In this document: piece after piece, positions 3,481 to 24,848 of the stretch
How the letters are laid out: each line of letters opens with the position of its first letter
Numbering within the stretch: position 1 is the stretch's first letter
DNA from: Oehlia diaphana
Taxonomy: Eukaryota > Glomeromycota > Glomeromycetes > Glomerales > Glomeraceae
Assembly (NCBI GenBank): GCA_003833135.1
Contig: QZLH01001247.1
Location: 1-34,088, forward strand
Reading direction: 5' to 3'
Length of the DNA stretch: 34,088 nucleotides
The notes under the pieces: model-generated
What the model saw: the letters and a program-made list of their open reading frames with translations, nothing else
What the model was told of the DNA's origin: nothing
Databases searched by the model: none
Made by a program: the position numbers and the translations under genes

Positions 3481-5693
3481 GTAAAAAATGTAACTCATAA
3501 TATTTATATACTATAGTGGATTTCCCTAATGATGCTGTTTTGGATCTTATAAAAAATAAATATATACTCATGCATCTGAAATAAATTTTATCAGTAAAAT
3601 CTTTTTAAAAATTAATACAGGTAAAAACATGTTTTTTCCAAAAAAAAAATTTGAGTTCTACAATTTTTTTGTTCCTCTTTAGTTACTTATACAAAATAAA
3701 CAATTACTCCAAGAATTTCTTATTGAAAAATTTATTGTGCAAAATACTTTGGAAATAATGGTACTTGTCATACATACATAATATGTACTTTCTCTTTGTT
3801 TTACTGATTTTAGGATTTTTTTAAAAGAAATTTCAAAGTGCATTAAACAAATCTTTCATCAAATTTAAAATAAATTAGTATTTATAATTTTGTACTTAAT
3901 TCTTGGCAAACCCCTAATTTATGTTTACTTATCTTTATTTTTGATACAGTATTTATTTATAGTATTTATTATAGTTGTTCAGCATGTTTTACTGTGTTTA
4001 ATTTAAACACGAGGCAATTTTCTATATCAACCATAAGAGATTTTATTCAGAAAGAAGCGCAGTAAATTACTTACGAAAAGTTAATAATTTGTTTTTACAA
4101 CATATTTGAAACAGAGATAAAAAATGTTAGAATTGCGTGAAAATTAAAATTTTCTAAATATAAACAAAAAACCAGTAATTAAAAAAAAAAATTGATTCTC
4201 GTGAAAATAAAAATGCAAAAAATTTATCACGAAAATTATTAATTTTTTTAATAAATTTTTTTTATTCTTTTGATTAAAATTGGATCATTGAAAATTAAAT
4301 AACATGAAAATTAAAAATTTTTAAATGAGAATAATTTTTTAATAATAAATAAATGTAATATAAAAATTTAATAACTTATTAAAGAAAAAAAAATAAAATA
4401 AAAAAATGATTGTACACAAAAAATAAAATGTAATGATACGTGAAAATTAAAAATAATAATTAAAAATAACATAAAAATTTGAAATTAGTTGGAATATACT
4501 TAATGAATATTTTTATTTTTTTATTAGAGATATCAAAGAACATAATTCTATTTTTAAATATGGAGGACTGTTCATCTATCTAATTTAACTATCAAAAAAA
4601 AAAATTTTTTACCGTTTCTAGTTATTTCATGGGAAGCCGTTGAAATCATTGATCGTCATGGCGGAACCGTACCACGGAAACTAACGTCCCGTGGTGTGCA
4701 ATTTTAAACTACTAATAGACTTTTTTAGCTTATCCTTTTAAATAAACATCATGAGGAAACGTGGTATAATTTTCCTTATTTGCATTAACACTTTTGTATT
4801 TAATTTAATCATCTGTTGAAGTTTTTAATAAGAAATTCCTCCAATGATAAATTAAAAGCAGCTGAAAAATTATTGAAAGAATGTTGAAAATTCAGCATGT
4901 TGGTATGATGATAAAAATCTTTTAATTTGATGGCTAAATTTAGCGTAAGTAGTGCTACATTATGACGTACTTTACTGTACATTACTGTATTTGCATAAAA
5001 CTTTCGGAAAAAATTGCTGAATATCATTCCCATGTTTTAATAAAGGATCGGCAAAGTTACAAATTTGATCAACAAAGTTATTTCTAAATATGTTAACCAA
5101 CGAATAATAGTTTCAACGGTAATGCTGAGGAGCCAATTTTTTCTTTTTTTTTTATCTTGTAATTTTTGTATCAATCAATAGTTTTGTACCTTTTATTTAT
5201 TACCCTTAATAAAATCGAAACACAATCAACTATTTAATTGTTACATATAGAGATAGTCATATCATGCGCATGATGCACATGATGCATGTGATGCAGCATT
5301 TTGCGATCATACTATAAACTTTTTTTTTTTTTATAATTTATGTAATTTTATTTTTAATATTATCGAATATATGGCAATTTTATAATAATAGCAATTTTAC
5401 ATGATTTTTTTCAGTTGTTTTATTCATCTTCACTATCCGTTTCATCATTAATTTTTAAAATAATTTAATAATACCATTTTGATGCGCAGTCATGCACGTG
5501 TACTGTATGTGGGTGGGCATCATGTGCATGATGCCTATCTCGTTACATAACATGATGATCAACAAATTTATTATGTTACACTTCGGAATTTTTGAAAAAA
5601 AAAAAAAAAAAAAAAAAATTCTTTAACGATAAAATAAAACAAAAAAAAAATTTTTCCTTTTTAAAAAACTTTTTATAATAAAATTTTTATATT
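3481..5693. other. AT-rich intergenic spacer
   Basis: Long A/T-dominated stretch with homopolymer runs, including about 24 A's at 5595-5618 just upstream of the K1 gene. It contains a 7-bp hairpin (ACCACGG 4671-4677, CCGTGGT 4689-4695) and a possible inverted-repeat element at about 5238-5548 (listed separately). A minus-strand 74-codon frame at 4809-5033 may be a coding relic but has no recognisable domain. Confidence 0.5.
5238..5548. repeat. Possible non-autonomous inverted-repeat element
   Basis: The left side reads TGTTACATATAGAGATAG followed by tandem CATGATGC-type words. The right side, reverse complemented, reads TGTTATGTAACGAGATAG followed by CATCATGCACATGATGC. Both ends share GAGATAG-CAT and the CATGATGC words, giving an imperfect inverted repeat around a ~230-bp AT-rich core. 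No clear target-site duplication was found, so this may be a degraded MITE or simply two patches of similar ATGCAC repeats. Confidence 0.35.
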
Positions 5694-7906
5694 ATGTCTA
5701 CTATTATTATTCGAAGAAGATTAATTAATGAAACAGTTAGTAGAGCATGTTCATTAACTGATTATAATAATCGTACTGATATGCATAAACAATTTGAATT
5801 TCGTAAACAATTTATTCTTGATGATAAACTTCTTACAGATGATGAAAAAACTTTAGCAATTAAAATAATAAATGAGATTTATGATCAAAATAAAGTTCTT
5901 TCAAATTCTGGAATAAAAAGAATTTGTGAAAATTGTAATCAAGAATGTTTGGCAACATTATATTGTGAATATTGTGTTCAAAATTTTTTAAAATCAAATT
6001 TTAAAAATTGGACATCAGGAAATTATGATATTGATAATTTAATACAAAAATGTCAATTAGAAACACTCATGCCAAGTAAAGTAATTGAATGGATTTCATA
6101 TAAAAATTTAACGGATATTAAATATTTAACAAAAGGTGGATTTTCTGAAATATATACTGCACGTTGGATTGATGGATATTATAAACAATGGGATTCTAAA
6201 AATCAACAATTACTAAGATTTGGTACTATAAGAGTAATACTTAAAAGGTTAGAAAATGTTGAAAGTGCAAGTCAAAGTTGGTACGAGGAGGTAATATATA
6301 TATATATATATATATATTTTTTTTAAATTATTTTATCATTCTTTATATTGAACAATAAAATTCTTAATTTTTATAGGCTAAATCGCATTTAAATATAAAC
6401 AATAAACATACTACCATTGTTAAATGCTTTGGTTTAACAAGAGATAAACCAAATGGAAGTTATATGCTTGTAATGATGGAAATGGATATGGATTTAAGAA
6501 AATATTTACAACTTCATAATCAACTTACGTGGAAACAAAAAATTAGAATTGCTTTTGAAATAATTGATGCACTTTTTTTCATTCATCTTGAAAAGGCAAT
6601 TCATAGAGATTTGCACTCTGGAAACATATTATATTCAAAATATAATGATCGTTGGTTTATTAGTGATCTCGGATTTTGTGGACCTGCTGATAAATCATCA
6701 AAAAGTATATATGGAAATCTTCCATATATAGCACCCGAAGTTATTAATGGAAAGGGTTATACTTTTAAATCTGATATTTATAGTGTTGCAATACTTATGT
6801 GTGAAATCTCAACTGGATATCCACCATTTATTGATTGTAAACATATTGATTATGAGCTTGCAATGAATATAATTAATGGAATGAGACCAGAAATTGCGTC
6901 AGACACTCCTTTCGAATATAAAAGTTTAATGAAGCAATGTTGGGATGATAATCCGTCAAACAGACTTGATATTCAACCTCTTCGGGAAAAAATGAATGAA
7001 ATTCATCTATTATATCAAAATAAGCCAAATGAAGTTTTTCAGGCAAAACCACTAAATAATATTGAAATAAAAATTAGTAATACAAGTAGCAGATTATTTA
7101 CAAGTAAAATTTATCAATTTGATAATCTATTTGAACGAAAAAATGCAACAGAAGGTACTACTTTATATATTTTGTAGAGGAACAATCGAATTATTATAAT
7201 AACTTTTAAACTATTTTTCTTTTTTTTTTTTTTAAATAGAAATTTATAGTAAAGTATATGACTTTAGTATTCCTGATAATGGTAAGTATCGTTAAAAAGG
7301 TTACATTTATTGAAATATTTATTAAACGAATTTCATTTTTTAGTTGATGATTTTAATAATTCAAGAAATCTACTAAGTATTAATAAAACATCAAGAATAA
7401 GTAGTAATTTTAAAGGTAATTTATTTATATTTATATTTATTTAAATATCCTTTAAATAATAATGGTACAAATATATCTCAATTTTAGCCATTGATAAAGG
7501 ATTATCTAAGGTATATAAACCGTTAAAGATAAGCTCAAAGGATGGTAAGTAATATGATATTAAATATTAATTGTTCATTAAGCAATATTGATCGATCAAT
7601 TATTTAATAATATAGACATTCGAAATGATCATAAAAAAGTAATAATGCGACAAACGAAAGGTTCAGTTAGTGGTGAATAAAATTTTTTTCCATAAAATTT
7701 TTAATTTTGCAATATTTAAATTAAAATATTTTTTTGTCCTCTTATAGATGATGACGAAATATATAATAATCCAAACCTTCATTCAGAAGAACAAGATGAA
7801 TTTGAGATTCCCGAGGGTTAGTTTCTTAATATTAATATTGTATAAATAATATCTTAATTATTAATTTATATTATTTATATGTATTCTTTTTTCAGGTGGA
7901 TTTTAA
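5694..7906 (+). CDS. TKL-type protein kinase K1 (8 exons)
   Basis: Predicted Ser/Thr (tyrosine-kinase-like) kinase of about 560 residues. Exons inferred from GT-AG sites and paralogues: 5694-6290, 6377-7154, 7240-7281, 7344-7415, 7488-7544, 7616-7672, 7748-7816, 7896-7906; every junction after exon 2 is phase 1. Residues 78-94 hold a Cys cluster (C78, C81, C85, C91, C94) suggesting zinc binding. The kinase domain follows: glycine loop around 147-154 (KGGFSEIY), ATP-site lysine K184 in VILK, catalytic loop HRD 275-277 with N282, DLG 296-298 instead of DFG, APE 318-320. The tail after about 420 is low-complexity and ends 'EIPEGGF'. If the last donor is not used, it stops at TAG 7819. A paralogue's 12-nt 'EEQE' microexon is absent because its donor is mutated. 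An (AT)n run sits just inside intron 1. It is the left copy of a tandem duplication. The substrate is unknown. Confidence 0.85.
6294..6317. repeat. (AT)n microsatellite in K1 intron 1
   Basis: About twelve AT dinucleotides begin three bases after the exon 1 donor GT of K1 and run into an oligo-T stretch. Length variation here would sit right beside the splice donor. Confidence 0.9.
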
Positions 7907-9445
7907 AATTATATTTATAAGTAAATAATAAATAATATTGAAAATTTTATTTAAACACTAAGGTTAGAATAGTAAAATATTTTACGCGATTTCTTAGTTT
8001 GTAATTTAAATAATTTTTTTAATATTATATCTTATCAATAAATATAAAATCAATTTTTTTTATATATTAAATCGAAAAAAAAAGAAATAAAGTCAATGAG
8101 AAAGGGACGATAAGAAATATCATGTAAAGATTAAAAATAAGAAAAATAAAAATATTGAAACCAAGTTGTTATAAATTAGTAAAGAATTTTTAAAAATAAA
8201 AACAGCTTTGAATATTCACTTATAATCTTTTAAATTCTTTAGTTTTAATGAAGTTCCGATTCTCATAAATTTCTAAATATTTATTGTCATTCAAACATTT
8301 TATACAGTATTTCGTCTTGTTTCTATAATAATGTAAGGAACTTTTTTTATAATAATAAATAATGTATTGTATCAAAATAAATTTCATGTATTGATATTAA
8401 TATAAAATGGTTTAATAATATATTTTTTGCATGAGTTATAATTATTCGCATCAGTTAATTATTTTTTTTAATTAATAAATCTTTATTTTGCATCACATAT
8501 TCACGTCGGTAAATTTTTTCTATATTAGACTTTTATTTATACATGATTAATTTAATAATCGCAGTGGTAATGTGATTCGAGCATTAATTAAATTTCTTTT
8601 TAGTACATAATTATTTTTCAATAATTTTATATCACATCAGCTAATAATTCATAACGTTTTATATATTATACACTATTATTAGATAAAATGGTCAAAATGG
8701 CACAAGTATCAAACTATTAATATTTTTTATTATGATATTAACTATATGATTTATTAATAAAGAGGAATGTACATATTTTGATTAAGCGGTGTAAATTGTC
8801 ACGAACTTCCGCCGATTTTCAGCCACAAATAAATCAACATATGGGAAAAATCATTTTAATGGTTCGCAATAATCTGCGTGTTCTGAAACTAGAATTTTTT
8901 CATAATGCTTAGAATAGAATAAATTAAAATCTAAGGACCTAAGAATAATCATCCCTTATAAAGTTATATTCATTTCCTCATAATTTTCCAAGAGTTTTTT
9001 TTTTGCATTCATATATATATAATTATCAAATTAAAATAATTCAAAGTAATCGTAACGATTATTTATTCTTTCACATCAAATAATTAATAGTCAGTCCCTT
9101 CGCGCAACTCAGCTGCGATAGTGCCGCAGTTGTGAGGTCACGTGTGCACGAGTTGGTATTTATTTTGTACCTTGATTTTGTTATTTATTTCTAGAAATGT
9201 AAAAATATTTTTTATTACGTTAAACCTGTCTAAAAATAGTTTATTTTTTTGTTTATAATTGTTTGTGTAATTGCCACATGAATATTTAGATCATATGGTT
9301 ACACTTTTTAGAGTTTAGTAACTTTTCAGCTCATCGTCAAAAATAATTCTTTTTTTCACTTTTTTTCAAATTCATATTTATTTTTTTTTTTAACAAAAAA
9401 AAAAAAAAATTTTCATTTTTAAAATTTTAGCAACAAAATTGCATT
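7907..9445. other. Intergenic: K1 3' flank, then unrelated AT-rich spacer
   Basis: 7907-8580 is the duplicated 3' flank shared with 11694-12348. 8581-9445 is unique AT-rich sequence with one GC-rich patch at about 9096-9152, including a short hairpin (CTGCG 9113-9117, CGCAG 9125-9129). No gene is recognised. Oligo-T/oligo-A runs directly precede the K2 start. Confidence 0.6.
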
Positions 9446-11593
9446 ATGTCTAACATTCGATATGAATTAGTTAATTCAACAGTAAATAGAATAATTTTAT
9501 TAACGGATTTAAAAATTTACAATAACATACATAAATATTATGAATTTCGAAAACAAACAATTCTTAATGAAAAACTTCTTACAGATGACGAAAAAAATTA
9601 TGCAAAAAGATTATTAACTGGAATTTATGATCGAGATAAAGTTATTACTAATTCAGGAGCGAAAAGAATTTGTGAAAATTGTAAACAAAAATGTTTAGCT
9701 ACGTTATATTGTGAATTTTGTATTCAAAATTATTTAAAAATAAATTTTAAAAATTGGACATCAGGAAATAATGATATTGATGATTTAATACAGAAATGTC
9801 AAATTAAAACTATTGGACCAAATTATATAGTTGAATGGATTCCATATAATAATTTAGAAAATATTAAATATTTAACAAAAGGTGGATTCTCCGAAATTTA
9901 TACAGCTGATTGGATTAATAGTTCTTATAAAGGATGGGATTCTAAAAATCAACAATTAAAAAGATTTGGAAGTGCAAAAGTAGTACTTAAAAAATTAGAG
10001 AATGTTGAAAGTGCAAATCAAAGATGGTTTGTATTTTTAAATTTATTTATAAAGTTAACCAATTCTTTATTTACAATAAACGTTTTATATTTTTGTAGGC
10101 TAAATTACATTTAATTATAAGTAGTAAGCGTGGTAGCATTGTCCGTTGTTTTGGTTTAACACAAGATCTATCAAATGGAAATTACATGCTTGTAATGTCA
10201 AAGATGGAGACGGATTTAAGAAAATATTTACAACAAAATTATAATCAACTTACATGGAAAGAAAAGATTAAAATTGTTTATGAAATATCTATTGCACTTG
10301 GTAATATTTATAAAGAGAAAGCAATTCATAAAGATTTGCATTCCGGAAACATATTATATTCTAAATCAAATGATCGTTGGGTTATTAGTGATTTTGGATT
10401 TTGTGGACCTGCTGATATATCATCAAATAGTATATACGGAAATCTTCCTTACATAGCACCAGAAGTTATTAATGGAAAAGGATATACTTTTGCATCTGAT
10501 ATTTATAGTATTGCAATACTTATGTGGGAAATTTCATATGGATATTCGCCATTTATTGGTTATAAGCATGATGATTATAATCTTGCAATGGATATAATTA
10601 ATGGTATGAGACCAGAAATTATGTCAGATATTCCTTTAGAATATAAAAATTTAATGGTACAATGTTGGGATGCTGATCCATCAAAGAGACCTAATATTAA
10701 TGCTCTTGATGAGCAAATAAAAAACATTTATTTATCATATCAAAATATGCCAGATGAATTTTTCCAGTCAAAAGCAGTGAATAATTTTGAAATAAAAACT
10801 AGCACAAATTATATAAGCAGCAGATTATTTACGAGCAAAGTTCATCAATTTGAAAATTTACCCGAACCAAAAAATGCAACAGAAGGTATTATTTGCTAAG
10901 TTTTTTGTTTGATATGATGACGTTACTAAATTTTTTTTAATTTAAATGATTATACACATTATAGAAGAACAAGAAGGTTAGCTTTTTAATTGTTGTTTCA
11001 TTAACTATTATAATAACTGAATTTATAACCTATTATTCTTATTTTTTAAAATAGCATTTCATAGTAAAACATATGATTTTAGTATTCCTGATAATAGTAG
11101 GTATTTATTGAGTATTTCATTTGATGAAATATTTATTAATCAAATTTTCGTTTTTTAGTTGAAGATTTTAATAATTCAAACGATCAGAAGATTAATAAAA
11201 CAACAAAAATAAATAGTATTTTTAAAGGTAATTTATATATTATATATTCAAATTTTTGAAATAATGTTATAAATTTATCTCAATTTTAGGTGGTAGTAAA
11301 AGATTATCTAAAGGATTTAAAAGGTTACAAATAAGTTCAAAGAATGGTAAGTAATAATATTCTAAATTTTAATTGTTTATTCAATATTTATAATCTTATT
11401 TATTTAAAAATTTAGACATTCCAAATAATCATAAAAAAGAAACAATGCAACAAATGAAAGGATCAGTTAATGGTAAGTAGAATTTTTTTCTATAAATTTT
11501 CAATTTATTTTGCAATGTTTAAATTAAAATTTTTGTCCTTTTATAGATGATGACGAAATACATAATAATCCAAACCTTCATTCAGAAGATTAA
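9446..11593 (+). CDS. TKL-type protein kinase K2 (8 exons), truncated tail
   Basis: Paralogue of K1, about 551 residues. Exons: 9446-10030, 10099-10885, 10965-10976 (12-nt microexon encoding the EEQE turn), 11055-11096, 11159-11227, 11290-11346, 11416-11472, 11547-11593. Tail junctions are all phase 1. Cys cluster C76, C79, C83, C89, C92. Kinase motifs: glycine loop about 145-152, lysine K182, catalytic loop HKD 272-274 (the usual Arg is Lys), N279, DFG 293-295, APE 315-317. Exon 1 ends at 'RWF': the two Glu codons present at this junction in the paralogues are missing, but the frame is kept because the donor moved to GTATTT. A TAA at 11591-11593 replaces a codon in K1, and the region equivalent to K1's last acceptor is deleted downstream, so the final exon is lost. 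Catalytic residues K, D, N and D are intact, so it is probably active. Confidence in the exon chain is high because K1 and K3 match it. Confidence 0.85.
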
Positions 11594-12391: not shown

Positions 12392-15058
12392 CTACAAGAA
12401 ATTACACAAGCTCATCATCCATTTTTTGGGCATTCCTACATAATAACGACCACCATCTGGGTATACAACTATCAATCCAACCTCCAAAGCTTTTTGTTTT
12501 AATGCTTCTGGAAAAAGTGAACCACAAGCAACTCCAACTAGTTCTTTATCTGATAATTGTTTGAATTCGGGATCTTTTGCCTTCTTCAATTTCTCAGGGA
12601 ATTCCTTTAATCGTTCAACAATTTCGTTTAACTTTTCCTAAAAATGGTTGATTGATCAGTGAGCTTGTTAAACAGATTCATGAGAGTTACATCAAATTAA
12701 TAATTTTTATATTTACCTCTGATATTTTATGTTTGCATTCGCATAAAAATACTTTATCACGACATAATAATATCCCGTCCCATTCCATTATGGGATTACC
12801 TGTTTCATCATGCATTATTCGATTAGTAAAGACCTCAACAGGAGATTTAAATGTTTTTTTGAGCTTGTTTTTTAAAGCTGATGTTGTTTCAATTTCCGCC
12901 ACCATGTCTTCAACTTTTGACCATGTTACGCCCTTCTTTATGGCCATAAGATATGCAGCACTTATACAATAAAGTTGATTAGGTTGAATGTCTTCAAAAG
13001 TTGAAATGACTTTCGGTACTTTATTATTATCATCGATATGCTTCAACCCTCTTGCATCTACTCTCTTTAAAAACTCGCGAAAATCATTTTCATCACGCAT
13101 TGTAAATTCTTCAAATTTGTCTAATGGTTCACCTTCGTCATTGTAACATTGGACACGAAAAGTTTTCTCTTCCTTAGCATGTACTTTACCACCGGTATGT
13201 ACTAAAAATAAAAATGGTCAGTTGGCACATCACGTGAGTTGACCAATCATTATGGCACAAAAGCATACCTTGATGTTCATCTAAATTGGGTTAGGAGACC
13301 AAGAATGGTTAGCTTTTAGTAACATTAAAATATTATACGATAAACACATACCTGGAACCTTCTTTATGGTCATGAGATATGCAGCACTTATACAATAAAG
13401 TTGATTAGGTTGAATGTCTTCAAAAGTTGAAATGACTTTCGGTACTTTATTATTATCATCGATATGCTTCAACCCTCTTGCNNNNNNNNNNNNNNNNNNN
13501 NNNNNNNNNNNNNNNNNNNNNNNNNNNNNNNNNNNNNNNNNNNNNNNNNNNNNNNNNNNNNNNNNNNNNNNNNNNNNNNNNNNNNNNNNNNNNNNNNNNN
13601 NNNNNNNNNNNNNNNNNNNNNNNNNNNNNNNNNNNNNNNNNNNNNNNNNNNNNNNNNNNNNNNNNNNNNNNNNNNNNNNNNNNNNNNNNNNNNNNNNNNN
13701 NNNNNNNNNNNNNNNNNNNNNNNNNNNNNNNNNNNNNNNNNNNNNNNNNNNNNNNNNNNNNNNNNNNNNNNNNNNNNNNNNNNNNNNNNNNNNNNNNNNN
13801 NNNNNNNNNNNNNNNNNNNNNNNNNNNNNNNNNNNNNNNNNNNNNNNNNNNNNNNNNNNNNNNNNNNNNNNNNNNNNNNNNNNNNNNNNNNNNNNNNNNN
13901 NNNNNNNNNNNNNNNNNNNNNNNNNNNNNNNNNNNNNNNNNNNNNNNNNNNNNNNNNNNNNNNNNNNNNNNNNNNNNNNNNNNNNNNNNNNNNNNNNNNN
14001 NNNNNNNNNNNNNNNNNNNNNNNNNNNNNNNNNNNNNNNNNNNNNNNNNNNNNNNNNNNNNNNNNNNNNNNNNNNNNNNNNNNNNNNNNNNNNNNNNNNN
14101 NNNNNNNNNNNNNNNNNNNNNNNNNNNNNNNNNNNNNNNNNNNNNNNNNNNNNNNNNNNNNNNNNNNNNNNNNNNNNNNNNNNNNNNNNNNNNNNNNNNN
14201 NNNNNNNNNNNNNNNNNNNNNNNNNNNNNNNNNGACCAATCATTATGGCACAAAAGCATACCTTGATGTTCATCTAAATTGGGTTAGGAGACCAAGAATG
14301 GTTAGCTTTTAGTAACATTAAAATATTATACGATAAACACATACCTGGAACCTTCTTTATGGTCATGAGATATGCAGCACTTATACAATAAAGTTGATTA
14401 GGTTGAATGTCTTCAAAAGTCAAAATGACTTTCGGTACTTTATTATTATCATCAATATGCTTCAACCCTCTTGCATCTACTCTATTTAAAAACTCACGAA
14501 AATCATTTTCATCACGCATTGTAAATTCTTCAAATTTGTCTAATGGTTCACCTTCATCATTGTAACATTGGACACGAAAAGTTTTCTCTTCTTTAGCACG
14601 AACTTTACCACTGGTATGTACTAAAAATAAAAACGGTCAGTTGGCACATCATGTTTGAGTTAACCAACCATTATGATGCAAAAGCATACCTTGATGTTCA
14701 TCTAAATTGGGTTAGGAGACCAAGAATGGTTAGCTTTTAGTAACATTAAAATATTATATGATAAACACATACCTGGAAGCTTCACTATGATTGGATTATC
14801 TTCATCGATTTCATATATTTCTGTTAATTTAGTAAAATTTTTTTGACTATCCTTAAAAATTGTATTATCCAAAGTGATAAGTTGTGAATCTTTCTTCTTT
14901 TTTGTGTATAAAGCTAGACTTGATGGAGAGCAAGTTAGTTTTTCTTTTTTTGATATTGCTTCAAGAAGATCAATAAAATCATTTCCGGAAAGTTCAGTGA
15001 TTTTATTTGCGTGATAATGATTTTCTATTTGAAACCAAACAGGTTTAGAGAAACTCAT
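12392..15058 (-). CDS. Crinkler-type (CRN) protein with duplicated middle exon and nuclease-like C-terminus
   Basis: Minus-strand multi-exon gene. Exon 1 (15058-14773) encodes a 95-residue ubiquitin-like CRN header starting MSFSKPVWFQIE. It is followed by a 12-nt microexon (14701-14690, 'DEHQ') and a domain exon (14620-14345) with 'EEKTFRVQCYNDEGEPLDKF' and 'ARGLKHIDDNNKVPKV'. The microexon recurs at 14273-14262 and 13280-13269, and the domain exon recurs at 13481-13352 (partial, beside an N run) and 13201-12717. The last copy runs on into 'VTWSKVEDM' and 'MEWDGILL...FLCECKHK', a D-x(n)-E-x-K pattern of PD-(D/E)XK nucleases (D at 12777-12779, E 12738-12740, K 12732-12734). The final exon is 12637-12392. 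Length would be 534 residues if the gap hides one domain exon and 630 if two. CRN nucleases are known effector-type toxins acting in nuclei; activity here is inferred. Confidence 0.8.
13201..14772 (-). repeat. Tandem 428-bp exon-intron units inside CRN1
   Basis: Each unit carries intron, 12-nt microexon, intron and the 276-nt domain exon. The intron around 'CTCCTAACCCAATTTAG' is essentially identical at 13281-13351, 14274-14344 and 14702-14772. The complete unit 14772-14345 is 428 bp. Exons begin and end in phase 1, so any number of units keeps the frame. Near-identity of introns as well as exons indicates recent duplication or ongoing homogenisation. Confidence 0.85.
13482..14233. other. Assembly gap (752 N)
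   Basis: Run of N within the tandem CRN1 units. If one 428-bp unit spans it, only about 187 bases are missing; if two units, about 615; if three, about 1043. None equals 752, so the gap length is probably an estimate and the copy number is unresolved. Confidence 0.99.
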
Positions 15059-15943: not shown

Positions 15944-18383
15944 ATGACAAGTATTTATGAAGAATTAATTAAACTTAAACTTAGTGAACATGTAATAAAG
16001 AAATTATATATTCATTTCACTAAAAATTATAATCAAATATATGAGGCGGAATTAATTCTTAGCAAATATTGCAAAACAGATGATGATAAATATGAATATT
16101 TAGAATCTTTATTAGAAAGTTCCTTATTACCTGATGGACCTGTTGGTATGTTATAATAATATGTTATAGTATTAATAAACTTAATAATTAATACTTATAT
16201 TGATATCGATCTTTTTTCTTTTAGTAACTAATAAATTAAGAATAAGAGATGTTTTTTCTGAAGGTATATATTAAATAATTCTAAAATTTATATTTTTTAT
16301 ATTATAATTAAAAAATAAAAAATATTTCTTTCCTTTATTAGGTCTAAAATATCAAAAACCAAAACCTTTACTTTCTACTATTGGTATTAATTGGGAATAT
16401 CAACCAGATCCATCTTTACATCATATATTGCGAAAAGAAATTAAGAATCATTATAGATATTTTACTCAAGAAAAATTTGATAAGGCTTATATGCCTATTT
16501 ATTTCTTTTTATCTGGTGCTGGTACAGGAAAATCACGAAATGCTACTGAATTTCATAATACAGTACTTAAATGTTTAAATAGTAAAGAAGATAATTCAAA
16601 ATTAAAAGATATGATTCAAAAAGCTTTAGTGTTTAATGTTAGCTTTGAAAATGGTACAAGTTTAAAACAAGTGGAATCTGATACTTATAAAGCTATTGGT
16701 ACTCGAATGTTATTACAACTCCTTCCTAATGTGAATTTGGATGAAATTATTTCAACTTATGAGGCACCTTATCCATGGGAAGTTTTACAATTGGTTGCTA
16801 AAAATAAGAAACAAGATTTGAAAAAGATTACAGTTTTCTTAATTATTGATGCATTACAACATATTATATATGATTCAAGAAAGGATCATTTAGATCCTGA
16901 ATACAAATTTTATCAGACTATATCAAATATAGCAGATCTTGCATGTCAGGGTACTTTTTTGATTCCATGTTGTACTTCTACAACTACTAGTCCAATTCAT
17001 AGTGTTACAAAAAGTCTATCTAATAAATGTGTTTACCTACCAGTTCCTACCTTACATCCTCCAACAATTTGTAAAGAAAATTCTCAAGAATCAACAAAAG
17101 TCTTTCCAAAAAATCTTATCTCAAAAATTCTTGTAGAGGATTGTGGAGGACATGGGAGAGCTCTTGAAACTTTACAAGAAACTTTAATAAATCATCATGA
17201 TGTTAGTGAAGACAACATTAACTTAATAATGAATGATTTGCGTAACACATTAACTAATAGATATATTAGTGCTTTTAGTCTTTCCAATGCTGAAATTCAG
17301 ACTATTGCAAAAGCAATATTATTTCACCAACCTTTAGATTTTGACAAGAATATTCCTGGAATAAATAAAACTCCAGAACAAATTGTTCAGCATGGACTTG
17401 TTCAATTTGAACGAGAAGGTACTATTGTTAATTCCAAAACAGGATATCTCATTGCACCATATAACTGGATTTGGATATTAGCACAACAAATTGGTATTGA
17501 TGAGTTACTTCAAAAATGGCAATTTGATGATTATAAAGAACAAAAATCATTATTATCATTAGATTCTCAAAGTTCGCGAAATTTTGAACAATTTATTGCA
17601 ACTATTCGTTGTTTAAAGTCACGGATTATAAAAGAAGGCGAGTTAACGAAAATTTCTGAAGTTCATTCTGGAGCACGATTGAATGGAGATATTGAATTTG
17701 TAAATCATCATCTAAAATTGAGAATTCCTGATTTTCAAGAACCTACAAATTCTGAAAATTCTAATGTAAATATATTATGTGGAAATGAAATTATTAATAT
17801 TCGACAAGGCAGATATTGCATTGTTAATCATGCATCTGCACAACATGGTGACTCTTTTATTAGTTTGGATTTAGAGAAAAATAAAGAAAAAGTAAATGAA
17901 AGGAAAAAATATTTTCCCTTAATTGCTAATGAAGTTCATCAATACAAATTCTGGAATAATAAAGAAGTTAATCAAAACGTTTACCTAAATGAACGAAATA
18001 AAGTTGCATCAACGCACGATTTTTTAATGCTCTATACAACCAAAAATTGTGATAAGTTTGAACTCCCAGAAAATTCAGGAATTGTTGATAAAGAAAATTG
18101 GAATAAATACTTTGGACCATTTGCAAATAGAGCATTTATATTTGCTACACCTCTTGATATTAATACAACAGATCGTAAAAGTCTTCAACAAATAAGATCT
18201 ATTGGTATTGAAAATTCAGAAAAAATCTTATCAAAGAGGCCATTTATAAATATTGAAAATGCAATGGAAAAAACAGGTTTATCGGAAAATGTGTTGGAAA
18301 AATTTAAATTTCCTTTTAGAAGGTATCATAGTTTAGCTCGTGTGAGTCATAAAATTTGTCAAAATATATTTCGTTACATATAA
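15944..18383 (+). CDS. CRN/RHS-type P-loop NTPase with nuclease-like region and HhH tail
   Basis: Three exons (15944-16145, 16225-16263, 16342-18383), both junctions phase 1, 760 residues. The N-terminus (1-81) lacks the ubiquitin-like header seen in CRN1 and is a short, unrecognised, Leu/Lys-rich helical stretch ending 'LLPDGPVG'. Walker A is GAGTGKS 139-145; Walker B is 'VFLIID' ending at D250; 'GGHGRALETL' (349-358) is a motif recalled from CRN NTPases. Residues about 500-620 resemble the restriction-nuclease-like module of this class, with GDSF (D584) and EVHQYK (E611, K616) as candidate active-site residues. Residues 693-738 read like a helix-hairpin-helix, 'IRSIGIENSEKI' then 'RPFINIENAMEKTGL', suggesting DNA binding. 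In CRN/RHS-type proteins the NTPase is thought to work with the nuclease. It is divergent from CRN1. The role is inferred from domains; it could act inside the fungus or in a host. Confidence 0.85.
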
Positions 18384-21756: not shown

Positions 21757-24024
21757 CTAACCATCAGGAATTTCCAATGTATTTTGTTCTTTTGAATGAA
21801 GGTTTGGATTATTATATATTTCATTCTCGTCTATAAAATACATTTGTTAATTATAAATAATACAAAATTTTAAATAAAAATTTTTGATAAAATATTTTCA
21901 CATACCATTAATATTAATATTAATATTCGCTCTTTTTATTTGTTGTATTTGTTGTATTTCTTCTTTTTTATAATAATCTCGAATATCTTTTATTTCAAAT
22001 AAAAAAATAAAAATCATTGAATATTTTAATAAAGTTCATTCATTATTACTTGTAATTTCTTTAAATGATATAAAATTATATTTACCATAATTTAGATTTA
22101 CTTGTGACATTTCAAATATTTTGTTGGACAATTTTTTATTATTAACTAAAATCAACATATAAATTAATCATTAATGTTTGTATTAATTTAATTAATAAAT
22201 AGAATTAATTACCTTTAATGGAAATATCCACATTTTGAATATCTGACTTATTAAATTCATTGACTAAAACAAGAAATCAAGCGTAAGTCGATCATTATAC
22301 ATTTTATTGTACAATTTTAAAAATATTAATAATTACTTACTATTATCAGGAATTTTGAAACCATATGATTTACTATAGAATACTATTAATACATTATCGT
22401 TTTAAAAGTTATATCAATAATATTTAACAATCATAAATAAAAAAAATACTATTACATACCTTCTTGTTCTTCTATTATTAATTAAATTAAAAAAATTAAA
22501 ACAAAAATATTTTTAATATACTGTATAATATATTGCATATTAAAAAAAAATTTATAATAGATAGTAAGCAACTATACCTTCTGTCGCATTCTTTGGTTCG
22601 GGTAAATTTTCAAATCTATGAATATTACTTGAAAACAATCTGTTATTTGAAGAATTTGTTTCTAAACCATTAGGTTTATATACTTTTGGTTGTAATAATT
22701 CATTTTCCATATTTTTATATGATAAATAGATTTCTTTTATCTGCTTCCTAAGCGTTTTTATATTAGGTCTTTTTAATGGATCAGCATTCCAACATTGTTT
22801 CATTAGTAGTTTATATTCTAAAGGAGTTTCTGGCACAATTTTTGGTCTCATGCCGTTAATAATCTTCATTGCTAGACTATAATCATGTTCATAATTTATA
22901 AATGGTGGTTGTCCAGATGTGACTTCCCACATAAGCATTGCAATACTATATATATCAGATGCAAAAGTGTATTCACTTCCAGCAATTATTTCAGGTGCTA
23001 TATAAGGAAGATTTCCATATATACACTTTGATGATATATCAGCAGGTCCACAAAATCCAAGATCACCAATAAGCCAAATATCAAGGACTCGTAAATACAA
23101 AATATTTCCTGAATGTAAATCTCTGTGAATTGCATTTTCATTAACGATTCTATAAAGTGCATTGATTATTTCAAAAATAATCTTAATCCTTTTTTTCCAT
23201 GTAAGTTGACTATGTTTTTGTTGTAAATATTTTCTTAAATCCATATCCATTTTTCTCATTACAAGCATATAATTTCCATTTAATGGATCTTGTGTTAAAC
23301 CAAAACAACGGACAATATCTACCCATTTATTGCCTATAGTTAAATGAGATTTAGCCTATAAAATTTAAAACTTTTATTATACAATAAAAATATAAAATGT
23401 ATTTAATTTTAATTTTGAAATTAGATAACAAACCTCTTCAAACCAATTTCGATTTATACTTTCAGCATCATCTAATCTCTTAAGTATAACTTCTTGAGTT
23501 CCATTTCTTACTAATTGTTGATTTTTAAAATCCCATTCTTCATAATATCCATCAATCCAATCTGCAGTGTAAATTTCGGAGAATCCACCTTTTGTAAGAT
23601 AATTAATGTTTTTAAAATTATTATATGGTATCCATTCAATTACTTTATTCGGCATGAAAGTTTCCATTTGACATTTTTGTATTAAATTATCAATATCATC
23701 ATTTTTAGATGTCCAATTTGAAAAATTTTCTTTTAAATAATTTCGAACACAATATTCACAATATGATGTAGCAAGACATTCTTGATTACAATTTTCACAA
23801 ACTCTTTTTGTTCCTGAATTATGAATAATTTTATTTCGATCATAAAATTGAAATAATAATTTTATTAATTTAGTTTTTTCATCATCTGTAAGAGATTTAT
23901 TAGATAAAACGAATTGTTCATGAAATTTATTTTGTTTGTGTATATCATTGTTAATATTATAATCACTTGACATATGTGCTTTCAAACACAATTCATAAAT
24001 CAATTCATATCGAATATTAGGCAT
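21757..24024 (-). CDS. TKL-type protein kinase K3 (8 exons)
   Basis: Third member of the same kinase family, on the minus strand, about 562 residues. Exons: 24024-23434, 23355-22578, 22471-22460 (12-nt EEQE microexon), 22382-22341, 22263-22213, 22145-22086, 21986-21906, 21830-21757 (TAG). All tail junctions are phase 1, as in K1 and K2. Cys cluster C76, C79, C83, C89, C92. Kinase landmarks: glycine loop about 145-152, lysine K182, HRD 274-276, N281, DLG 295-297, 'YIAPEIIAGSEYTFASDIYS' in the activation/APE region, and 'CWNADPLKRP' near the C-lobe end. Tail exons 5-7 differ in sequence and length from K1/K2 and include an Asn/Ile repeat, but the last exon returns to the conserved 'NNPNLHS' motif. 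No downstream exon equivalent to K1's GGF end is seen. It is predicted active; the substrate is unknown. Confidence 0.85.
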
Positions 24025-24848
24025 AATGAAAATTAATTACGAATTCAATTAATAATATTATATTATTAATAATAAAAAAATTATGAATTTGATAAAAATA
24101 AAAAGCATGAAAAATTTCAGAATAGGACTTTTAAATAATTTATATTCTATTTTGTAGTAAGTATCCGCGATCAAAAGATCAGCGTTTGTTAAATTGCGCC
24201 AATTTCTTTTTTTAGCAAATCATTACTAATCTAAGATTATAAAACCTTTATATTTAATACAAATTTCATTCAATAATGGAATTACAAATATTGAGTAATT
24301 TACGATCTATATATATACGTGTGTATATTATATATACAGTATATGCGTATGTACATATTATATTACTTGTACACCTTTGTGAATTAATTATGTCAATTTT
24401 GAATAATAACTTTTTTTTTGTTTGTTTATGCAAATTACCTTATAACAATAACAATGATTATGCAACATATAATAATTTTATTATTTATATCTTGCATGCA
24501 TTATTAAATTAGAAAATAATTATAAATTATTATAAACGAAAGAGAAGCGGCCGAATCGGTAATAAATATTTATTATATTGTGTATGACGAATTATGGGCT
24601 GGAATTCATATAAATATATATGTATCCCGGCCGAGCGACCAATTGCAGGCCTCTATATCGGATAATCTTAAGCTTTAGCCGAGTTATTTAAAAAAATTAT
24701 CTGCGTTGTCAATAATACTATCATCGTTGTAATCGTTGTAAATATCGAAAATAATTTATATGTTAAAAATATTTTTTCATAATAATAATATCTCATTTTT
24801 ATATCTAAAGAAGATTATGTTTACATTAAAATGTGAAGATCATTACTA

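Follow-up and report, generated by a model that had tools for sequence, protein, structure and literature searches.

Organisation of the locus

The window, by which we mean the whole stretch of 34,088 nucleotides (nt) analysed here, is contig QZLH01001247.1 of the glomeromycete Oehlia diaphana (assembly GCA_003833135.1, 108.8 Mb; contig C1182 in our numbering, where C denotes contigs and P proteins). On its minus strand lies a gene running from an ATG at 15058 to a stop codon ending at 12392 (Table 1). A header exon is followed by tandem, near-identical units, each formed of a 71-nt intron, a 12-nt microexon (ATGAACATCAAG), a 67-69-nt intron and a 276-nt exon, 426-428 bp in all. The repeated exon carries a domain of about 78 amino acids (aa), hereafter X, whose last copy precedes a likely PD-(D/E)XK nuclease. 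We consider it probable that this is a modular gene of the CR/CRN kind (header, linker microexon, X, nuclease) whose X array arose by a tandem duplication that captured a splice donor.

Every joint as far as exon C is in phase 1, and the array shows three donors reading CCAG/GTATGTG (the slash marks the exon-intron boundary). With 276 + 12 nt, one unit adds 96 codons and is in phase 1 at both ends. The 752-N assembly gap, the sole run of N in the window, sits inside the repeat, as expected where a repeat has broken an assembly. The first-pass annotation of this DNA had placed a frame-neutral array of 428-bp units, with this gap, between 13201 and 14772; apart from the slight variation in unit length the description was accurate, its two limits being the first bases of the terminal exon and of intron 1.

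The deposited R. diaphanus protein P0008 is contained without change in the last two exons (63 + 81 aa), the gene being identical to it over all its 144 aa, which places the source in R. diaphanus or something very near it. Since the P0008 gene model starts within the terminal exon, it is an example of how arrays of this sort can escape assemblies and gene models.

Table 1. Features of the X-nuclease gene, in order of transcription
Feature	Position	Strand	Description
Exon 1	14773..15058	-	286 nt, from the ATG to a donor in phase 1; header, last residues ..DEDNPIIVKLP
Intron 1, unit 1	14702..14772	-	71 nt, GTATGT..CTAAC..TTTAG
Microexon ATGAACATCAAG, unit 1	14690..14701	-	12 nt, phase 1-1, adds D-E-H-Q
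Intron 2, unit 1	14621..14689	-	69 nt
Domain exon A	14345..14620	-	276 nt, with a full copy of X; 3' end a chimera, ..AAGAAG GTTCCAG/GTATGTG
Intron 1, unit 2	14274..14344	-	71 nt
Microexon ATGAACATCAAG, unit 2	14262..14273	-	12 nt
Intron 2 (5' 28 nt), unit 2	14234..14261	-	cut by gap; same letters as start of intron preceding exon C
Assembly gap	13482..14233		752 N, within repeat array
Domain exon B, 3' part	13352..13481	-	130 nt, mosaic: body C-like, tail A-like
Intron 1, last unit	13281..13351	-	71 nt, no difference from unit-2 copy
Microexon ATGAACATCAAG, last unit	13269..13280	-	12 nt
Intron 2, last unit	13202..13268	-	67 nt
Terminal exon C	12717..13201	-	485 nt, X copy continuing into nuclease domain (MEWDGI..VFLCECKHK)
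Last intron	12638..12716	-	79 nt, phase 0; junction matches P0008
Last exon	12392..12637	-	81 codons + TAG; identical to 81-aa tail of P0008

Number and similarity of the domain exons

Two domain exons are certain, because A is joined by unbroken sequence with exon 1, as C is with the nuclease, and because the two differ at 12 of 266 nt (254 identical). A third, the partial exon B, is likely. It is identical to A at 127 of 130 nt and to C at 118 of 120, following C exactly over its first 107 nt and then carrying the tail of A. The earlier count of at least three domain exons is thus certain for two and likely for the third, which is partial and mosaic. The size of the gap fits no whole number of units. 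Among the introns, the pairwise identities of the intron-1 copies are 70/71, 70/71 and 71/71. The first intron-2 copy matches the last at 60 of 67 nt plus a 2-nt indel and the second at 23 of 28, and the second, cut by the gap, matches the last at 28 of 28.

Measured in register, the units on either side of the gap are 993 nt apart, or 2.32 units. Whole units would need a gap of 187 nt (three domain exons), 615 nt (four) or 1043 nt (five), of which 615 comes closest to 752. When the open reading frame of exon A was searched as DNA against the whole assembly, four matches were obtained at E <= 0.001, all in this window; at the protein level, more distant relatives of X were detected elsewhere in the genome.

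The mosaic structure of B is what recombination between units would be expected to give, though a path switch by the assembler could yield the same. It is conceivable, therefore, that only A and C exist, B and the gap being such a switch or a second nuclear haplotype and the contig ends unmerged views of one unit. Over 241 nt the overlapping stretches have 99% identity, a switch from A to C within a 53-nt stretch free of A/C differences could produce B, and the gap size matches no whole unit number. We nevertheless regard this reading as unlikely. B is set apart from A by 3 of its 130 sites and equals C over its first 107 nt, and a gap of positive length (752 N) was placed, whereas two copies would presumably need overlapping contig ends. 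Proteins of other species also hold tandem X copies. The first-pass annotation had itself named a haplotype or assembly artefact as what would overturn it, and the tandem X in other species' assemblies (three copies in P0032, two to four matches in Gigaspora proteins, some of them partial) counts against a pure assembly artefact.

Origin of the repeat unit

The letters at the breakpoints show how the unit was formed. Exon A ends ATAAAGAAGGTTCCAG/GTATGTG, exon C reads ATAAAGAAGGGCGTAAC at the corresponding place and exon 1 ends ATAGTGAAGCTTCCAG/GTATGTG. In full, the tail of exon A is ATAAAGAAG-GTTCCAG/GTATGTG. Upstream of GTTCCAG it tracks exon C; from GTTCCAG on it tracks the end of exon 1 (GTGAAGCTTCCAG/GTATGTG) together with its intron, with one base different. 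The two breakpoint ends have GAAG in common. Because exon A follows C and then the end of exon 1, the duplication joined the last bases of exon 1 and their donor to the terminal exon. The amplification in tandem was recognised correctly at first, while the repeated exon is not an old domain exon but a chimera bearing the captured splice donor of exon 1.

This intragenic tandem duplication had its breakpoints a few bases before the exon 1 donor and, in the terminal exon, right after X. A unit so delimited brought along intron, microexon, intron and X together with the ready-made donor of exon 1, leaving the phase unchanged and creating a new in-phase exon in one step. Unequal crossing-over or gene conversion may later have altered the copy number and mixed the copies. 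If every unit is spliced in, the protein would be organised as header-(DEHQ-X)n-nuclease, n being about 3-4, each added X supplying one predicted ubiquitin-like binding module before the nuclease.

The duplicated exons could instead be skipped or mutually exclusive, leaving one X per transcript, as their phase symmetry and near identity would permit. Gene models of other species put several X in one protein (P0010, P0032), possibly as predictions without transcripts, and we hold alternative use of the exons to be quite unlikely.

Header, X domain and nuclease

Exon 1, searched against the genome up to E 10, matched only itself. No match to the Crinkler N-terminal domain PF20147 was found in it up to E 10, and none lies on the window's contig among the 150 places scored, of 243 candidates, in a genome search with that profile. 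Two stretches of exon 1 noticed by eye, LALYTK and PIIVKLP, were considered as candidates for the LxLFLAK-like and HVLxxP-like motifs of the header end and carry no statistical support. The name CRN1 given to the gene at first is accordingly kept as a label only. The CRN designation is only partly earned. P0017, an R. clarus relative with an X-nuclease body of this kind, does begin with a PF20147 header.

Homology between exon 1 and the P0032 header is not claimed. The alignment (31% over 88 aa) had E 2e-4 when a single sequence was searched, and 0.16 when all 36 proteins were. With a profile built from the headers of P0032 and C322, exon 1 scored 6.6 bits, while at least 5 of 2000 shuffles scored 8.1 to 11.1. 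Weak matches to DUF5689, Spore_Cse60, MHC_I_2, PsbU and similar families were not used as evidence.

In models, X appears ubiquitin-like, the arrangement sought being the beta-beta-alpha-beta-beta (beta-grasp) fold. The stretch MEWDGI..VFLCECKHK that follows the last X is what we take to be a PD-(D/E)XK-type motif. A model of the related protein P0012 (mean pLDDT, the predicted local distance difference test, 70.8) matched the nuclease R.BspD6I (2p14) in Foldseek with E 8e-4 and probability 0.99, at low template-modelling scores of 0.22/0.32, and a NERD match had E 0.0047, below its cut-off. The C-terminal part is a likely PD-(D/E)XK nuclease. By inference from related proteins, the product may act as a delivered effector with nuclease activity.

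Bodies of the same kind occur behind other headers: PF20147 in P0017, different N-termini in P0012, P0015 and P0005, an N-terminus named SAM in P0010, and a helical-looking header (by eye) on C382.

X domains in other proteins

More than one X match was obtained in 8 of the 31 X-bearing proteins found, the other 23 having a single match. The multiple cases are P0032 (Diversispora epigaea Glove_48g67, 520 aa) and the Gigaspora proteins P0003, P0010, P0011, P0013, P0018, P0025 and P0027, which hold two to four matches, several of them partial. P0032 is laid out as header-SDEHQG-X-X-DEHQG-X-nuclease, with three X copies and with the microexon peptide DEHQ twice, ahead of X1 and ahead of X3. Within one protein, X copies are 59-73% alike in P0032, 64-71% in P0010 and 96% between A and C of the window.

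A midpoint-rooted tree of X was built with 34 rows, omitting P0006, shorter fragments and window copy B. The copies group by lineage: the three of P0032 form one group (95/91, starred), ten from Gigaspora another (88/89, marked open), and A with C a third (95/78, below the tool's starred level). The junctions after X also differ by eye, the window having ..YLMTIKK-VPG-DEHQ and P0032 ..NISS-PY-DEHQ. Given these groups and junctions, at least three separate expansions of X are the simplest reading, the alternative being concerted evolution of an old array. With copies merely 59-73% alike and different junctions, the duplication in P0032 looks separate from that of the window and older.

At some residues A and C agree with each other but neither with R. 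irregularis P0002 nor with P0001 (by eye). Together with their grouping apart from R. irregularis, this makes the event look younger than the split from R. irregularis, unless the copies were homogenised, and it bears out the first impression of a recent amplification. All in all, the array most likely goes back to a recent duplication, in tandem, of a module made up of linker and domain, and modules of this sort have expanded several times in these fungi.

P0001 is labelled Funneliformis caledonium, yet it groups with R. irregularis and the window and is 53% identical to P0012 of F. geosporum; perhaps it comes from a mislabelled or contaminant contig, or from a transferred gene. Contig C330 bears an X-nuclease paralogue with several stops in which the microexon is absent by eye. 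On C625 (276-9344), inverted repeats (751 nt at 97%, and others) flank a gap of about 4.5 kb, their arms bearing SAM-like (by eye) and X sequences.

The microexon linker in the genome

The microexon and its borders were searched for across the genome with the 20-base pattern TTTAG-ATGAACNTCNAG-GTA, which occurs at 12 places in 9 loci, the reversed control giving 0. Three places are in the window, two on C382 and one each on C63, C173, C256, C283, C580, C672 and C859. A stricter pattern gave 9 exact places and 3 with one mismatch, so that the relaxed pattern covers all 12. The microexon is ATGAACATCAAG in 7 of the 12 and one base off in the other 5. No place in the genome lies one mismatch from the relaxed pattern, and the 18 places at two mismatches, not above the control (26 at up to two mismatches), were not counted.

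The introns on both sides of the microexon are related in DNA between loci, as seen with BLAST. The header exon ends in phase 1 at all 7 loci with a named donor, namely C322 and six of the eight microexon loci outside the window; this count omits C63 and C283, whose header or donor looks degenerate, and keeps C672 although its upstream header frame is broken. The exon downstream of the microexon was open in phase 1 at 3 of 3 loci tested. As the donors and acceptors had been chosen beforehand by a reader, the phase test confirms a reading and is not a blind find. On C322 the cassette is found with a microexon cut to three bases (ATG), and the header that precedes it is closely similar to the P0032 header.

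After the linker, the body is X-nuclease in the window and on C382, P-loop NTPase-like on C173, C580 and C859 (nSTAND3, E 1.6e-4 to 1.6e-3, below the Pfam cut-off) and DUF6826 on C256 (E 8.2e-11, above the cut-off). These assignments omit C672 and C63, whose bodies look broken, and C283; headers and bodies at the other loci were read mostly by eye. With the same microexon lying behind varied headers and before varied bodies, one linker joins several heads to several bodies. On C382 (about 3615-3712, minus strand) two 12-nt microexons, ATGAACATCAAG and ATGAACTTCAAG, stand in tandem, each with its own introns, between the helical-looking header and a single X with nuclease; one stop lies inside that X. 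Since the same microexon and related introns follow the header exons of other genes, the unit duplicated in the window amounts to the linker plus the next domain, cut at the joint where headers and bodies differ between genes.

Could the 12 nt be a fortuitous AG-12nt-GT inside a single intron of about 150 nt? Skipping them would keep the frame, 5 of 12 copies have one-base variants and the C322 copy is cut to three bases. But the 12 nt and the flanking TTTAG and GTA are kept at 9 loci, each intron has by eye its own donor, branch-like CTAAC or CTGAC and acceptor, and the DEHQ peptide is present in the D. epigaea model. An unused microexon is in our judgement very unlikely.

At least 4 of the 8 other cassette loci look damaged (one stop on C382; broken frames or donors on C672, C63 and C283), so the presence of the cassette is no proof of a working gene. 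That related loci decay in this way, as does the paralogue on C330, could hint that the window locus is itself a decaying pseudogene with a functionless array. Its visible exons are open, however, and its splice signals sound; over 266 nt, A and C differ by 6 synonymous changes and by 5 residues, numbers too small for a verdict on selection. A pseudogene seems highly improbable.

We put forward, tentatively and as a proposal that may well prove wrong, that the cassette of about 100 bp (..GGTCTCCTAACCCAATTTAG / ATGAACATCAAG / GTAAGCCTTTGCGTCGTAATGATTGGTCAAC..) serves glomeromycete CR proteins as a shuffling joint. It sits in phase 1, with three or more kinds of header on one side and three or more kinds of body on the other (a count made partly by eye), and recombination inside it would swap heads and bodies, duplicate the microexon as on C382 and amplify the next domain as in the window, making it an intron-borne counterpart of the oomycete HVLxxP hot spot. 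The cassette may have been kept either as a recombination site or for splicing; no consensus RNA structure was found for it (-0.85 kcal/mol). Its two halves are on average 83% and 82% alike against 74% and 75% when shuffled, figures inflated by gapped alignment (45 pairwise comparisons among 10 cassettes, the first two units of the window omitted), for which the BLAST E-values are the better measure.

The intron pattern and BLAST searches together named 13 contigs, the window's included. On one look, C235 showed an intron-like stretch in which the microexon pattern was absent. The idea that the cassette introns form a widespread introner-type element was dropped, as the intron pattern occurs at just 7 places (up to 3 mismatches, control 0). 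Among the titles and abstract beginnings listed for an open-access subset of the literature, no earlier description of the locus or the linker was found, and within that subset the microexon linker is apparently unreported. We consider this shared cassette the finding worth following.

Neighbouring genes

Divergent from the X-nuclease gene, a gene at about 15945-18383 (plus strand) shows by eye a Walker-A-like GAGTGKS and has a weak helix-hairpin-helix match (HHH_3, E 0.001, below the cut-off); it may be another CR-type gene, arranged head to head with the first. Three mutually similar kinase-like genes with a Cys-rich N-terminal stretch (by eye) lie at 5682-7177 (plus), 9431-10899 (plus) and 22552-24036 (minus).

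Comparison with known systems

According to PMC6131194, CRN or CR proteins combine a Ubl header with an REase-type C-terminus, as in RiCRN1 of R. irregularis, and many CRN-like proteins of these fungi are without the LFLAK domain. The end of the CRN header is described as a recombination hot spot in a review (PMC5289972). Like these proteins, the window gene has a modular header and a nuclease-type C-terminus as predicted; unlike them, it gives no PF20147 match in exon 1, carries tandem X between header and nuclease, and has an intron-microexon-intron linker as its joint. In its workings, the arrangement would resemble a CR/CRN protein in which the number of middle modules can change. Head and body exchange and changes of domain number in CRN proteins have mostly been inferred from protein alignments (PMC5289972). 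Here the joint is visible in DNA, with duplication breakpoints, the splice donor taken over from exon 1 and a linker exon of 12 bases common to genes with different heads and bodies. This makes two questions testable: whether the number of X modules in nuclease-type CR proteins of symbiotic fungi varies between isolates, and whether recombination uses a conserved intron cassette as its joint.

P0032 resembles the window gene in its order of header, DEHQ, X, X, DEHQ, X and nuclease; it differs in its less similar copies and its junctions, and its header similarity is not significant. Gigaspora margarita F8M41_000953 (P0010, 527 aa) likewise has three tandem X before the same kind of nuclease, but its N-terminal part (SAM domain-containing in the source name) is different, its copies are also less alike, and no DEHQ-like motif was found in it.

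For the SP7-like effectors of arbuscular mycorrhizal fungi, PMC11333574 reports a varying repeat number, its authors suggesting that more repeats give more binding. Judged by description, the variable number is shared with the window, whereas their repeats are hydrophilic and the window's would be a folded module before a nuclease. In tandem exon duplication and in intron gain by tandem genomic duplication, intragenic duplication reuses splice sites to give new exons or introns, according to PMC9013439 and PMC4974935. As in tandem exon duplication, the exons of the window are adjacent, near-identical and of frame-neutral phase; the unit duplicated here differs in comprising a whole domain and a linker microexon, with a donor captured from exon 1.
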